DNA from: Chloroflexota bacterium
Lineage (GTDB): Bacteria; Chloroflexota; UBA5177
Direction of reading: 5' to 3'
DNA length: 50,269 nt
NCBI GenBank assembly: GCA_025966365.1
Contig: JAICWV010000008.1
Span: forward strand, 1 to 50,269
Position 1 is the stretch's first letter. Each line of letters opens with the position of its first letter. Positions 11,454 to 27,438 of this stretch are shown here, piece by piece. The position numbers and the translations under genes are program-made. The notes beneath the pieces are model-generated. The model made no database searches, was not told where the DNA came from, and was given only the letters and a program-made list of their open reading frames with translations.

Positions 11454-11465
11454 TCAATATATTGA
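11454..11465. repeat. Perfect 12-bp palindrome TCAATATATTGA
   Basis: AT-only centre in otherwise GC-rich DNA, between converging gene ends. A protein-binding site or part of the adjacent repeat element are both possible. Confidence 0.4.
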
Positions 11466-11470
11466 TTTCC

Positions 11471-11583
11471 GCGCCGCCGCGCAGCTTCTGGCCGCATTCC
11501 TCCGGACGTCGATAACGGTGGCAGGCGTCCATGACGCAGCAGGCAACTCAGCGGGTGCCTGGATCGAAGCTGCGCGGCGGCGC
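11471..11583. repeat. 113-bp element with perfect 18-bp terminal inverted repeats
   Basis: The arm at 11471-11488 (GCGCCGCCGCGCAGCTTC) is the exact reverse complement of 11566-11583. The 77-bp interior contains a smaller hairpin, AGGCA/TGCCT (11541-11560). It lies between the 3' ends of two converging genes. It could be a bidirectional terminator, but the long interior and the lack of T-runs also fit a small MITE-like insertion. No target duplication is obvious. Confidence 0.6.
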
Positions 11584-11606
11584 AGCAGCCAATGAGGTTG
11601 GCTGAA

Positions 11607-23765: not shown

Positions 23766-24233
23766 ATGCAAATCTACTTTGCTGGCCCGCTGTTCACACC
23801 CTATGAGCGACGGTTTATCGAGGAGTGCGCCACCAAGATCCGCGCCGCCGGGATCGACGTCTGGGTTCCGCACGAGCATGCGGCCGAGATGACGGTGGAT
23901 GGAAAGATCACAGCCAAGTCCGTCTTCGACAAGGACTTCTCCGGCCTTTTTCCGTCCAACGCCGTGGTGGCCCTCCTTGACGGTCCCATGGTGGACGACG
24001 GTACCGCCTGTGAGATCGGGATGTTCTACGCCTTTACCCGCACCGACTCGTCCAAGAAGGGAATCCTGGGCCTTTGCACGGACTCGCGCGCGATCCGTGC
24101 CCGCGAGAACTATGAGGGCAAGGGCATCAATCTCTATGTGCTGGGCGCGATCGAGGAGGTCGGGGCAGTCTACGACACCATCGACGACATCATTCCCGTC
24201 CTCCAGCAGTGGAAAGCGGAGCTGGAAGGGTGA
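23766..24233 (+). CDS. Nucleoside 2-deoxyribosyltransferase
   Basis: A 155-residue enzyme with the family's start YFAGPLFTPYERRF, central VALLDGPMVDDGTACEIGMFYA (the Glu after GTAC is the expected nucleophile) and C-terminal GINLYVLGAIEE. It transfers 2-deoxyribose between bases, or hydrolyses deoxynucleosides, via a deoxyribosyl-enzyme intermediate. AAGGAG precedes the ATG. Encoded directly after the importer, it would process imported deoxynucleosides, while the next gene handles ribonucleosides. Confidence 0.9.
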   Translation: MQIYFAGPLFTPYERRFIEECATKIRAAGIDVWVPHEHAAEMTVDGKITAKSVFDKDFSGLFPSNAVVALLDGPMVDDGTACEIGMFYAFTRTDSSKKGILGLCTDSRAIRARENYEGKGINLYVLGAIEEVGAVYDTIDDIIPVLQQWKAELEG

Positions 24234-25177
24234 GCGTCAATCTCCTGATTGACTGCGACACCGGCGTCGACGACGCCCTCATGCTTCTCGACCTCGCCGG
24301 TAATCCGGACGCGAATATCGTGGCGGTGGGCAGTGTCCACGGCAATGTCCAGTCCCGTCGCGCAGCCATCAACACCCGCTACGTCCTCGACCTGGTCGGC
24401 CTGGAGGATGTCCCCTCAGCGGTCGGCTCCTGGCGGCCGCTGGCTCAGCCGCTCCACACAGCCGAGTACATCCACGGCCCTTTTGGCCTGGGCGGCTTCG
24501 AGCCTCCGGAGCCAAACACTCCGCTCAGCGAGGAGCACGCCGTCAACCAGATGATCCGGCTGGCGCACGAGCGCCCCGGCGACCTCACCCTCCTCGCCAC
24601 CGGCCCGCTCACCAATCTGGGCGCCGCGCTGGTGCTCGATCCGGAGCTTCCCCAGCTGATTCCGCGTGTCGTCATCATGGGCGGCAACATTGCCGAACCC
24701 GGGAACATCACGCCCTGGGCCGAGGCCAACATCTGGCATGATCCCGAGGCGGCCGATCTCGTCTTCCAGTACGGCTGGGAGGTCGTTCTGGTCCCGCTCG
24801 ACGTCACCCATCAGACCCTGCTCACCGGACCCTACCTGGAGCGCTTGCAAGCAGCAGCATCCTCCAGTGCGGTCGCCGAGTTCGCATCGGCCATCGTACA
24901 GTTCTACCTGGACATGTACGAACAGGCGCGCGGCATTCGCGCCGCGGCCATGCACGACCCTCTGGCGGGCGGTGTCGCGCTGGACCCATCGCTGTGCGGC
25001 TACATCGAGAAGTCCATCCACGTCGAGCTTCGAGGAACCGAGACCCGCGGCATGACCGTGGCGGACCTGCGCGGCTACCGGGACGAGATCAGCGACCGGC
25101 CCAGGGTCAAGGTGGCGATGGAGGTAGAGGCGGATCGGTTTTTGAGTGCGTTCGTCGAGAGGCTGACAAGGGGATGA
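24230..25177 (+). CDS. Inosine-uridine preferring nucleoside hydrolase
   Basis: A 315-residue nucleoside N-ribohydrolase. The calcium-binding DxDxxxDD signature is at residues 8-15 (DCDTGVDD); other landmarks are LLATGPLTNLGAAL, VVIMGGNI, AEANIWHDPEAA and the C-terminal AAMHDPLAGGVALDP supplying a further metal Asp. It releases free base and ribose, feeding the deaminase and ribokinase downstream. GTG 24230 overlaps the previous stop (GTGA). The DUF559 cassette begins on the final base of this gene's stop codon. Confidence 0.93.
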   Translation: MSVNLLIDCDTGVDDALMLLDLAGNPDANIVAVGSVHGNVQSRRAAINTRYVLDLVGLEDVPSAVGSWRPLAQPLHTAEYIHGPFGLGGFEPPEPNTPLSEEHAVNQMIRLAHERPGDLTLLATGPLTNLGAALVLDPELPQLIPRVVIMGGNIAEPGNITPWAEANIWHDPEAADLVFQYGWEVVLVPLDVTHQTLLTGPYLERLQAAASSSAVAEFASAIVQFYLDMYEQARGIRAAAMHDPLAGGVALDPSLCGYIEKSIHVELRGTETRGMTVADLRGYRDEISDRPRVKVAMEVEADRFLSAFVERLTRG

Positions 25178-25184
25178 CCCTCAC

Positions 25185-25213
25185 CCCCCTCTCCCATGCG
25201 ATGGGAGAGGGGG
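25185..25213. repeat. Left palindrome of DUF559 cassette
   Basis: Perfect 13-bp stem CCCCCTCTCCCAT / ATGGGAGAGGGGG around a GCG loop. Confidence 0.85.
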
Positions 25214-25237
25214 AGATAGCGAAAGAAGGTTTGGTCG

Positions 25238-25654
25238 GTGAGCCGTGAGCGAGGATTCCCAGGGCGGCTTGAGATGCACACGGAGAAACGGCACAAGTTG
25301 GTCACTGCGGCCCGTGGTCTGAGGCGCGAGGCAACGCCCAGTGAGGAGCTGCTCTGGAACGCGCTTCGTGGACGGCAACTCGGCGTGAAGTTCCGACGCC
25401 AGCACGTGATCGGACCGTTCGTCACGGATTTCTGCTGCCATGGTCGTCATCTTGTGATTGAGATCGATGGTCCCGTGCACGACCGCCAAACGGAACGTGA
25501 CGAAATCAGACAACAACTTCTCGAAGATCACGGATACACGGTGATTCGATTCACAGCGGAACAGGTGGAAACCAACCTCGGTTGGGTAATCGGCTCGATC
25601 GCCGATTCTCTAACTCCCCCTCTCCCACGGGTGGGAGAGGGGGCCGGGGGGTGA
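25238..25654 (+). CDS. DUF559 domain endonuclease-like protein
   Basis: A protein of up to 138 residues from the DUF559/Vsr-like group of the PD-(D/E)XK nuclease superfamily. Family landmarks are ARGLRREATPSEELLWNALR, GVKFRRQHVIGPFVTDFCC and HLVIEIDGPVHD, with the D and E(x)D positions expected of the nuclease core, followed by RDEIRQQLLEDHGYTVIRFT. Nuclease activity is inferred from the fold only. GTG 25238 has AGAAGG upstream; ATG 25274 is a shorter alternative. The last ~15 residues are encoded by the right-hand palindrome, a sign that gene and repeats travel together. Confidence 0.8.
   Translation: MSRERGFPGRLEMHTEKRHKLVTAARGLRREATPSEELLWNALRGRQLGVKFRRQHVIGPFVTDFCCHGRHLVIEIDGPVHDRQTERDEIRQQLLEDHGYTVIRFTAEQVETNLGWVIGSIADSLTPPLPRVGEGAGG
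25616..25643. repeat. Right palindrome of DUF559 cassette
   Basis: Perfect 13-bp stem CCCCCTCTCCCAC / GTGGGAGAGGGGG with a 2-base loop. It lies within the DUF559 3' coding end and is the reverse-oriented counterpart of the left palindrome. Confidence 0.85.
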
Positions 25655-25659
25655 GGGTT

Positions 25660-27438
25660 ATGCCCCCGTTCGACCGTCCTTCTCTCATTGCCGCTGCCCT
25701 CGGCGACATTGAGCTGGGCCTCGTCCTCAAGAACGTCACCCTCCTCAACGTCTTTACCGGCGAGACCTATCCCGCCGACATTGGAGTGAGCCAGGGCCGG
25801 GTGGCGCACGTGACCGCGCCCGGGGAGGAGCGCCTGACCGGCCGGCAGGTGGAGGATCGATCGGGATTGATCGCCATTCCCGGCCTCATCGATACTCACA
25901 TCCATATCGAGAGCAGCATGGTCACGCCGGCCCACTATGCTCAGGCGGTGGTCCCTCACGGAACCACCACCGTCCTGATCGATCCACACGAGCTGGGAAA
26001 CGTATCGGGGCTGGCAGGAGTGCGCTATATGGTCGATGCCAGCGAAGGGATTCCGCTGCGCGTGCTGATCATGGCACCATCCTGTGTGCCCTCGGCCCTG
26101 GGGGTGGAGACGGCCGGCGCCTCTTTCGACCAGGACGAGATCGCCGAGATGCTGACGTGGCCGCGGGTGGTCGGGCTGGCCGAGGTGATGGACTATCCCG
26201 GTGTCCTCCGCCGCGACGGCAGGATGATGCGGCTGATCGAGGCCACGGAAGAGGCGGGAGGCCTGATTCAGGGTCACGGGCCGGGGCTGACGGGAAGAAG
26301 ACTGTCGGCCTACCGCGCCGCCGGAATTGACTCCGACCACGAGAACCGCGTGCCGGAGGAGGCGCTGGCCAAGCTGCGCGCGGGCATGACGCTCGAGGTG
26401 CGCGAAAGCTCCCTCTCGTTGAACGCGGCCGCCATGGCCTCGGCCCTTCGCGGACATGGCTACCTGCCGAACGTCACCCTGTGCAGCGACGATGTCACCC
26501 CCGAGGATCTCCTGCGTAACGGCCATATCGACTACGTGGCGCGGCGGCTGGTCGAGGAGGGGCTCGATCCTATCGACGTGGTCCGTTTTGCCACCCTCAA
26601 CGCCGCCAATCGGCTGCGCCGGCAGGACCTGGGAGCCATTTCTCCCGGCCGGATCGCCGACATCGTCCTGCTTTCCGATCTGCCGACGTTCAGCGTCGAG
26701 GAAGTCTATAGCTCCGGGCGGCTGGCCGCTCGCGATGGAAAGGTACGCTTCACCGTGGACGACAGCGTCGGCGCCTCTTCCGAGAACACGGTCCGACTTC
26801 CCATCAATCTCAGTGCCGACAGCTTTCGGCTCCGGCCTCCTGGTCTGGAAGGCCGAGAGAAAGCCGTGGTCCGCATCATCAGCTGGCATCCGCGTGCCGG
26901 GGCCAAGACATCCTTCCTGGAGGCAGAGATTCCAGTGCGCGGCGGTGAGCTCGATCCGCCTCCCGAGCTGAACGGAGAGACGCTCAATACCCTGGCCGTG
27001 GTCGATCGTCACGGCACGCACGGCGGCACCTCCACCGGCCTCGTGCGCGGCTTCGGGCTGCGCCGCGGCGCCCTGGGCAGCACGGTCTCACACGACAGTC
27101 ATCAGCTCACCATCATGGGAGCGAGCCGTGAGGACATGCTGGCGGCTGCCCACCGGCTGGCAGAGATCGGCGGCGGTATCGTCCTGGTGCTGGATGGGAC
27201 AGTGATGGCGGAGATCCCGCTTCCGGTAGCCGGTCTGCTATCCACCGAGCCGGCCGAAGCCGTGGCGCACCAGGTGGCGCGGATGCGGGAGGTGGCGCCG
27301 CGGGTGGGATTGCCCCCGGACAACAGCTTTATGGGCATCGTCTCCCAGACCCTGGCGGTATCTCCCTTTGCCAAGCTCTCCGACCTCGGCCTCATCGATG
27401 TGAATGCACAAACGTTGGTTCCAATGGTGGTGCGATGA
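25660..27438 (+). CDS. ade: Adenine deaminase
   Basis: A 592-residue amidohydrolase of the Ade family converting adenine to hypoxanthine and ammonia. The metal site is visible in GLIDTHIHIESSM, then PHGTTTVLIDPHELGNVSG, with further ligand or catalytic residues in LAEVMDYPGV, IQGHGPGLTG and CSDDVTPEDL. A C-terminal Ade-specific domain (DRHGTHGGTSTGLVRGFGL) is complete. ATG 25660 follows the DUF559 cassette directly and has only a weak GAGGG; reading frames opening earlier lie within the cassette. Translation may depend on the cassette. It overlaps ribokinase (ATGA). Confidence 0.92.
   Translation: MPPFDRPSLIAAALGDIELGLVLKNVTLLNVFTGETYPADIGVSQGRVAHVTAPGEERLTGRQVEDRSGLIAIPGLIDTHIHIESSMVTPAHYAQAVVPHGTTTVLIDPHELGNVSGLAGVRYMVDASEGIPLRVLIMAPSCVPSALGVETAGASFDQDEIAEMLTWPRVVGLAEVMDYPGVLRRDGRMMRLIEATEEAGGLIQGHGPGLTGRRLSAYRAAGIDSDHENRVPEEALAKLRAGMTLEVRESSLSLNAAAMASALRGHGYLPNVTLCSDDVTPEDLLRNGHIDYVARRLVEEGLDPIDVVRFATLNAANRLRRQDLGAISPGRIADIVLLSDLPTFSVEEVYSSGRLAARDGKVRFTVDDSVGASSENTVRLPINLSADSFRLRPPGLEGREKAVVRIISWHPRAGAKTSFLEAEIPVRGGELDPPPELNGETLNTLAVVDRHGTHGGTSTGLVRGFGLRRGALGSTVSHDSHQLTIMGASREDMLAAAHRLAEIGGGIVLVLDGTVMAEIPLPVAGLLSTEPAEAVAHQVARMREVAPRVGLPPDNSFMGIVSQTLAVSPFAKLSDLGLIDVNAQTLVPMVVR

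Follow-up and report, generated by a model that had tools for sequence, protein, structure and literature searches.

The window, by which we mean the whole stretch of DNA that was analysed, comprises 50,269 nucleotides from a Chloroflexota bacterium (contig JAICWV010000008.1 of assembly GCA_025966365.1). Near its middle, a small cassette with a single DUF559 gene lies between two host genes. The features of this locus are as follows:

24209..25177, + strand: upstream host gene, nucleoside hydrolase (IU_nuc_hydro; PF01156, E=1e-90)
25177..25658, + strand: whole cassette, 482 bp, arranged as terminal inverted repeat (TIR), hairpin, DUF559 gene, hairpin, TIR (sequence and repeat search)
25177..25189, + strand: 5' TIR ACCCTCACCCCCC, a REP 'head' and the pyrimidine strand of the triplex-type motif (repeat search; solo MITEs of the same genome end alike)
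25185..25213, no strand: 5' palindrome CCCCCTCTCCCATgcgATGGGAGAGGGGG, 13-bp perfect stem and 3-nt loop (repeat search; DNA fold -15.7 kcal/mol, z -5.2)
25238..25654, + strand: DUF559 / EDxHD-type nuclease gene, 138 aa from GTG (PF04480, E=1.5e-31)
25616..25643, no strand: 3' palindrome CCCCCTCTCCCACggGTGGGAGAGGGGG, 13-bp perfect stem, within the 3' end of the ORF (repeat search; fold z -3.0)
25646..25658, - strand: 3' TIR GGGGGGTGAGGGT, the perfect inverse of ACCCTCACCCCCC, holding the stop codon of the ORF at 25652-25654 (repeat search)
25660..27438, + strand: downstream host gene, adenine deaminase (PF13382, PF01979)

The preliminary description, made from the sequence alone, had claimed perfect 13-bp TIRs and 13-bp-stem palindromes around a single DUF559 gene, a gene whose 3' end is made of the repeat, and a position between the stop codon of one neighbour and the start codon of the other. 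All three claims held. The sequence, the repeat search and PF04480 confirmed the first, the final codons and the stop of the DUF559 ORF are encoded by the 3' repeat, and the cassette abuts the TGA of the nucleoside hydrolase (25175-25177) and is followed directly by the ATG of the adenine deaminase (25660). One small correction concerns the 3' TIR arm, whose last base is 25658. An alternative start of the DUF559 gene, an ATG at 25274, would give 126 aa.

The sequence CCCTCTCCC occurs six times in the window against 1.29 copies expected, four of the six lie inside the cassette, and none of 100 shuffles reached six. In addition, both hairpins fold better as single-stranded DNA than their shuffles (z -5.2 for the 5' hairpin and -3.0 for the 3' hairpin). 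Thus, the repeats of the cassette are not a product of chance. Imperfect inverted complementarity extends beyond the ends of the element, both in the window cassette and in the MITEs described below. A search of Rfam for a known RNA family returned only sub-threshold chance matches. The longest inverted repeat found in the window is an unrelated one at 11461-11593 (28 nt, 86% complementary, with a spacer of 77 nt).

The genome of the window contains exactly two DUF559 genes. The second (locus L002, G000:C218) has the same layout as the window cassette and is bracketed by CCTCACCCCC heads, pointing outward, and CCCCTCTCCC hairpins; its gene and loops have diverged from those of the window copy. 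Furthermore, gene-less MITE-like copies of about 115 bp, with ends as in the cassette, are scattered in this genome (ACCCTCACCCCCCGGCCCCCTCTCCC..GGGAGAGGGGGAG, spacer, TTCCCCCTTCTCCCACGCGTGGGAGAAGGGGGCTAGGGGGATGAGGGT). The counts of such solo copies rest on pattern searches, and a strict head-plus-hairpin pattern gave 13 matches against 0 for the reversed control. An empty site was found in another genome of the same family (G001), whose adenine deaminase is 75% identical to that of the window. There, the orthologues of the two host genes share the bases GTGA at their junction, and no insert separates them (L122). Therefore, the window unit is an insertion at an operon junction that left both neighbours intact.

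The DUF559 protein is related to a known homing endonuclease and has kept its acidic residues. In an alignment of 20 homologs, E24, D52, E63, D65 (as E63-x-D65) and G66 are invariant (alignment numbering). The family profile matches PDB 3hrl, an endonuclease-like protein whose source we take to be Neisseria (E=6e-36), and the profile of alignment A1 matches PDB 3r3p, a 'mobile intron protein' that we take to be the EDxHD homing endonuclease I-Bth0305I (E=5.5e-6). A published genome paper likewise assigns a DUF559 gene to the EDxHD family (PMC9403480). At two other loci (L059 in G032:C38 and L060 in G008:C17), DUF559 forms the putative endonuclease within an intein-like insertion in a DNA methylase gene (CVRKG...TADHRIL...VYDLEIEDAHSFITEVCVVHN, followed by CGSGTT); the Pfam intein model gave a partial match to L059 that was below its cut-off (E=8e-5). 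This context was seen only at these two loci and is absent from the window locus. The nuclease domain alone measures about 110 aa and has no obvious strand-transfer chemistry. We also considered an anti-phage defence nuclease and rejected this candidate, for PADLOC gave only matches of E>=0.04.

To follow the gene beyond this genome, a profile scan of 84,980 species genomes was carried out with alignment A2, because A1 was too diverse, and 80 further DUF559 loci were obtained. For the 76 loci with enough flank, we took the longest exact inverted repeat between the 220 bp upstream and the 220 bp downstream of the gene, and the same measurement at 651 other positions within these loci, with unchanged geometry, served as the control. 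An inverted repeat of at least 12 nt spanned the gene at 60.5% of the 76 loci, from many phyla, compared with 1.4% of the controls; for at least 16 nt, the values were 32% and 0 of 651. A hairpin of 9 bp or more stood on each side of the gene at 43% of 30 Chloroflexota DUF559 loci (controls, 0/206) and at 30% of the 76 other loci (controls, 0.2%). The tested loci come from Cyanobacteriota, Planctomycetota, Alphaproteobacteria, Bacteroidota, Mariprofundus and others, and plasmid or replicon records add Deinococcus, Sphingomonas, Azospirillum, Sinorhizobium, Photobacterium and Neisseria. Thus the repeats accompany DUF559 in relatives and in distant phyla far above control.

The simplest rival explanation is chance, that is, a small gene that happens to lie beside common terminator-like hairpins. 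Some genomes are indeed rich in C-rich hairpins. However, the enrichment over control placements in the same loci is about 40-fold, and reversed patterns gave 0 matches, so this explanation can be practically ruled out.

The palindromes are multi-copy (a single genome can hold as many as 248, against none for the reversed pattern), and they are arranged as inverted dimers. Many DUF559 loci without the exact motif bear another palindrome, such as CCCCTTCCC..GGGAAGGGG in L035 and L055. Tandem arrays of the palindrome stand beside DUF559 in L054, L055, L035, L057 and L048, and several of these are inverted and similar in number on both sides (four and four in L054, five and four in L055). A strong DUF559 match (E<=1e-20) was present in 37 of 101 genomes. 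When at least three repeats were required, 18 genomes had both the gene and the repeats, 19 had DUF559 only, 7 had repeats only, and 57 had neither (Fisher p=7e-5; the genomes are not phylogenetically independent). DUF559 was not detectable in six repeat-rich genomes (G037, G045, G093, G001, G028 and G085). Protein divergence and flank sequence were only weakly correlated (partial Mantel rho 0.10). As a separate observation, DUF559 in Neisseria gonorrhoeae (L227) lies between repeats of about 100 bp that are direct, not inverted, each with a CTCTCTCCC-type hairpin plus head.

The genomes with repeats and no DUF559 support a second rival, in which the hairpins are spread by some other enzyme, such as a RAYT, and DUF559 genes travel between them merely as passive cargo. 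However, no match to the Y1 transposase was found in the repeat-rich genomes G023, G037, G045, G064 and G093, and none of 12 Y1 (Y1_Tnp) loci in other genomes had the repeats close by. RAYT was rejected as the mover on these two grounds. In three of the genomes without DUF559 (G037, G045 and G093), which hold 92-215 repeat copies, neither DUF559 nor a Y1 transposase was detected. In addition, a single gene family across so many phyla is not expected for random cargo. We regard passive cargo as unlikely.

The gene-bearing cassettes and the gene-less elements have common ends. In Alphaproteobacteria, 40 MITEs of 112-148 bp were found, in which a first and a second palindrome are followed by a spacer and then by the second and the first palindrome in inverted order. 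In the alphaproteobacterial DUF559 cassettes, both ends show this two-palindrome arrangement, and the gene stands where the MITEs have their spacer. Of 14 DUF559-carrying genomes searched, 13 from alphaproteobacteria and one from a Lysobacter, 10 contained the end motif CTCCCC(2-9)GGGGAGGGGGAC, with at most 110 copies and 0 matches for the reversed control. All six inverted end-pairs seen at a spacing of 415-527 bp contain DUF559 (five were tested with the profile, and the sixth, in G222:C12, is locus L209). Only the pair in G215:C4 is independent evidence, because the other five loci had selected their genomes. Sinorhizobium carries two-palindrome elements of 111-148 bp, and in S. meliloti Ak57 DUF559 lies between two inverted copies of such an element (L231). 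Whole MITEs flank the gene on each side both there and in a metH gene (L094). At three further Sinorhizobium loci (L237, L244 and L245), an IS110-family element is apparently inserted inside or beside the two-palindrome repeats.

The preliminary description had suggested a search for target-site duplication, and no consistent one was found. The 40 alphaproteobacterial MITEs showed no duplication of fixed length (p=0.05), and 23 element orientations from Sinorhizobium, with some elements counted both ways, gave a weak signal (p=0.008), again of no fixed length. The absence of a fixed-length target duplication argues against ordinary DDE transposition.

These results bear on a third rival, which we call homing-only. 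It holds that solo REPs or MITEs already in place are cut by DUF559 as a free-standing homing endonuclease, that repair from a cassette then copies the gene in, and that the MITEs spread by other means. Its support comes from the relationship to I-Bth0305I, the intein-borne copies, the gene between whole MITEs in metH L094 and Sinorhizobium L231, and the missing target-site duplication. However, the abundance of MITEs with the same ends as the cassettes is most simply explained by one enzyme that moves both, and a separate enzyme for the MITEs was not found. Homing-only and our preferred explanation, an autonomous element moved by its own nuclease, agree that DUF559 is the nuclease, and they differ in what moves the MITEs. 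On balance, we consider homing-only the less likely of the two.

Besides the empty site in G001, presence and absence at orthologous loci were seen in two further settings. In metH (family f7), the cassette lies in frame in the linker preceding the cobalamin-binding region. Among 27 readable junctions, 6 were occupied and 21 empty; this ratio is not a frequency, because the search was seeded from an occupied genome. The best-preserved copies have the cassette between complete repeat pairs of 75-80 bp, and the metH domains were confirmed for L044. The repeat-DUF559-repeat arrangement is in frame in metH at L044, L053, L094, L097, L111, L112, L116 and L118. The linker is hypervariable, and other short repetitive inserts occupy the same spot in other genomes. 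In Sphingomonas, DUF559 lies between pntAA and pntAB in 9 of 30 loci, and the two genes are directly adjacent in six. A lone hairpin, ATTCCTCCCCGTTCCGGGGAGGAAT, stands at this junction in L340, and one locus retains a 3' remnant that matches the right end of an occupied neighbour (L331 and L347).

On two Deinococcus plasmids, the cassette occupies different positions within the same hpa operon, and DUF1156-type methylase genes are interrupted by it in one Chloroflexota genome and in cyanobacterial plasmids. Two other candidates for empty sites were rejected. The candidate site on Sinorhizobium pSymB had kept remnants or was rearranged, and in E. coli, whose ycjD belongs to the DUF559 family, the alternative allele has an efflux operon following sapF (four other genomes inspected) and is thus no clean empty site.

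The E. coli gene is relevant to a fourth rival, in which DUF559 is a resident Vsr-like repair nuclease acting on hairpin or triplex DNA, the repeats gather for regulation or repair, and nothing is mobile. A similar role has been proposed for the Caulobacter DUF559 protein VsrA, which is required for a DNA damage response in vivo (PMC12907096), a finding that we also count in favour of our preferred explanation. Furthermore, ycjD keeps one constant position between sapF and fabI (sapF-ycjD-fabI, loci L221-L226) in about 3,300 of the 5,426 complete E. coli genomes. Its flanks lack the E. coli triplex repeats, and in the two copies examined one unrelated hairpin with a stem of 17-19 bp (TCACCTCATTCTGACAAG) stands upstream of it. 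However, a host repair factor does not fit a gene that occurs sporadically at unrelated loci, in frame within metH and DUF1156 genes, interrupting operons, and present or absent within a genus. We therefore consider this explanation improbable.

In our opinion, the cassette is likely the autonomous, gene-bearing form in a REP/MITE family, and the DUF559 nuclease is probably the enzyme that mobilises this family. Such a system would work like REPIN/RAYT without being RAYT. The architecture, the recurrence across phyla, the presence and absence at orthologous loci and the ends common to gene-bearing and gene-less forms are shown, as are the kinship of the enzyme and the lack of a link to RAYT. 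That DUF559 cleaves the repeats, mobilises them in trans and sets off a copying step is inferred. In this mechanism, a small nuclease of the DUF559/EDxHD (Vsr-like) fold would most likely recognise the C-rich, hairpin- or triplex-forming ends of the cassette and cut or nick there. Repair or replication of the break would then copy the cassette to a new place or, in trans, its gene-less siblings that share these ends. The accepted sites would be those of low harm, namely directly after stop codons, between operon genes, and in frame in flexible protein linkers.

Several observations stand against this explanation. No movement was observed, no consistent target-site duplication was found, and some repeat-rich genomes are without detectable DUF559. 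In addition, ycjD lacks the triplex repeats, the correlation between protein and flank is weak, and a domain of about 110 aa has no obvious strand-transfer chemistry. The evidence does not separate homing-like repair into existing repeats from true transposition. The preliminary description had read the unit as a minimal self-associated mobile cassette, comparable to REP/RAYT except that the enzyme is of the PD-(D/E)XK type. This reading is supported, with movement inferred from comparison. It had also stated what would count against it: DUF559 genes in relatives without the repeats, or repeats found genome-wide with no link to DUF559. Some DUF559 genes do lack the repeats (E. coli ycjD and the intein-borne copies); the repeats do occur genome-wide, yet they are linked to DUF559, apart from the repeat-rich genomes mentioned above.

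A bolder reading is that these cassettes represent a class of transposable elements with a stand-alone Vsr/EDxHD-fold nuclease as sole mobility protein, triplex-forming hairpin ends and no target duplication, and that this class is the common source of the orphan PIT/TM of enterobacteria, the RIME of rhizobia and similar C-rich REPs in Chloroflexota, Cyanobacteriota, Alphaproteobacteria, Planctomycetota and Deinococcota. Taken jointly, these propositions may as easily prove wrong as right. C-rich palindromic repeats of the triplex-forming type occur in very many bacteria and have been debated for decades without a mobility enzyme, while DUF559 is a widespread family of 'unknown function' that includes E. 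coli ycjD. The pairing gives the family a testable function, offers a candidate origin for several long-known orphan repeat families, and suggests a way of moving DNA that differs from both RAYT and DDE transposition. Odd annotations, such as DUF559 domains inside metH or DUF1156 proteins, are also accounted for.

In the open-access literature searched (subscription papers and preprints were outside the scope), we found neither a link between DUF559 and palindromic repeats nor a mobility gene for these repeat families. Among known systems, REP/REPIN-RAYT (TnpA-REP) resembles the cassette in its short palindromes with an unpaired 'head', which form inverted pairs in many copies per genome, and in the matching enzyme gene bracketed by them. 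However, RAYT is a Y1 HUH transposase and the cassette enzyme is a DUF559/EDxHD-type nuclease; the REP heads are GTAG/CGTC (definition in PMC3733652), whereas those of the cassettes are C-rich, CCTCACCCC or ATCCTCCCC. REPs of the CGTC type are stated to have no dedicated transposase (PMC3733652). IS elements with their MITE derivatives also combine a gene-bearing form and short gene-less forms with common TIRs, but the cassette has no DDE or HUH transposase, and no target-site duplication was detected.

By sequence comparison, the window repeats match the PIT/TM intrastrand-triplex motif, of which E. coli K-12 has 23 copies (PMC4666352); triplex formation itself is inferred. The 3' end of the window cassette, CCCTCTCCCACGGGTGGGAGAGGGGGCCGGGGGGTGAGGGT, is laid out like E. 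coli TMECO, CCCTCTCCCTGTGGGAGAGGGCCGGGGTGAGGGC, with a purine/pyrimidine hairpin and a mirror third strand (Table 1 of PMC4666352). The authors of that study never found transposases or integrases near the motif, and no mobility gene is reported nearby, whereas in the cassette the motif brackets a nuclease gene. In Enterobacter sp. 638, 100 copies of the hairpin were interpreted as terminators (PMC2869309). The Sinorhizobium two-palindrome elements of 111-148 bp appear to be RIME, whose description they fit. The literature searched connects RIME with no enzyme, whereas DUF559 stands between inverted copies in S. meliloti Ak57. Finally, the EDxHD homing endonucleases, represented by I-Bth0305I, are similar in profile homology, in conserved acidic residues and, at two loci, in the occurrence of DUF559 in intein-like ORFs, but the cassette gene differs from them in being free-standing between palindromic TIRs and in having gene-less siblings.
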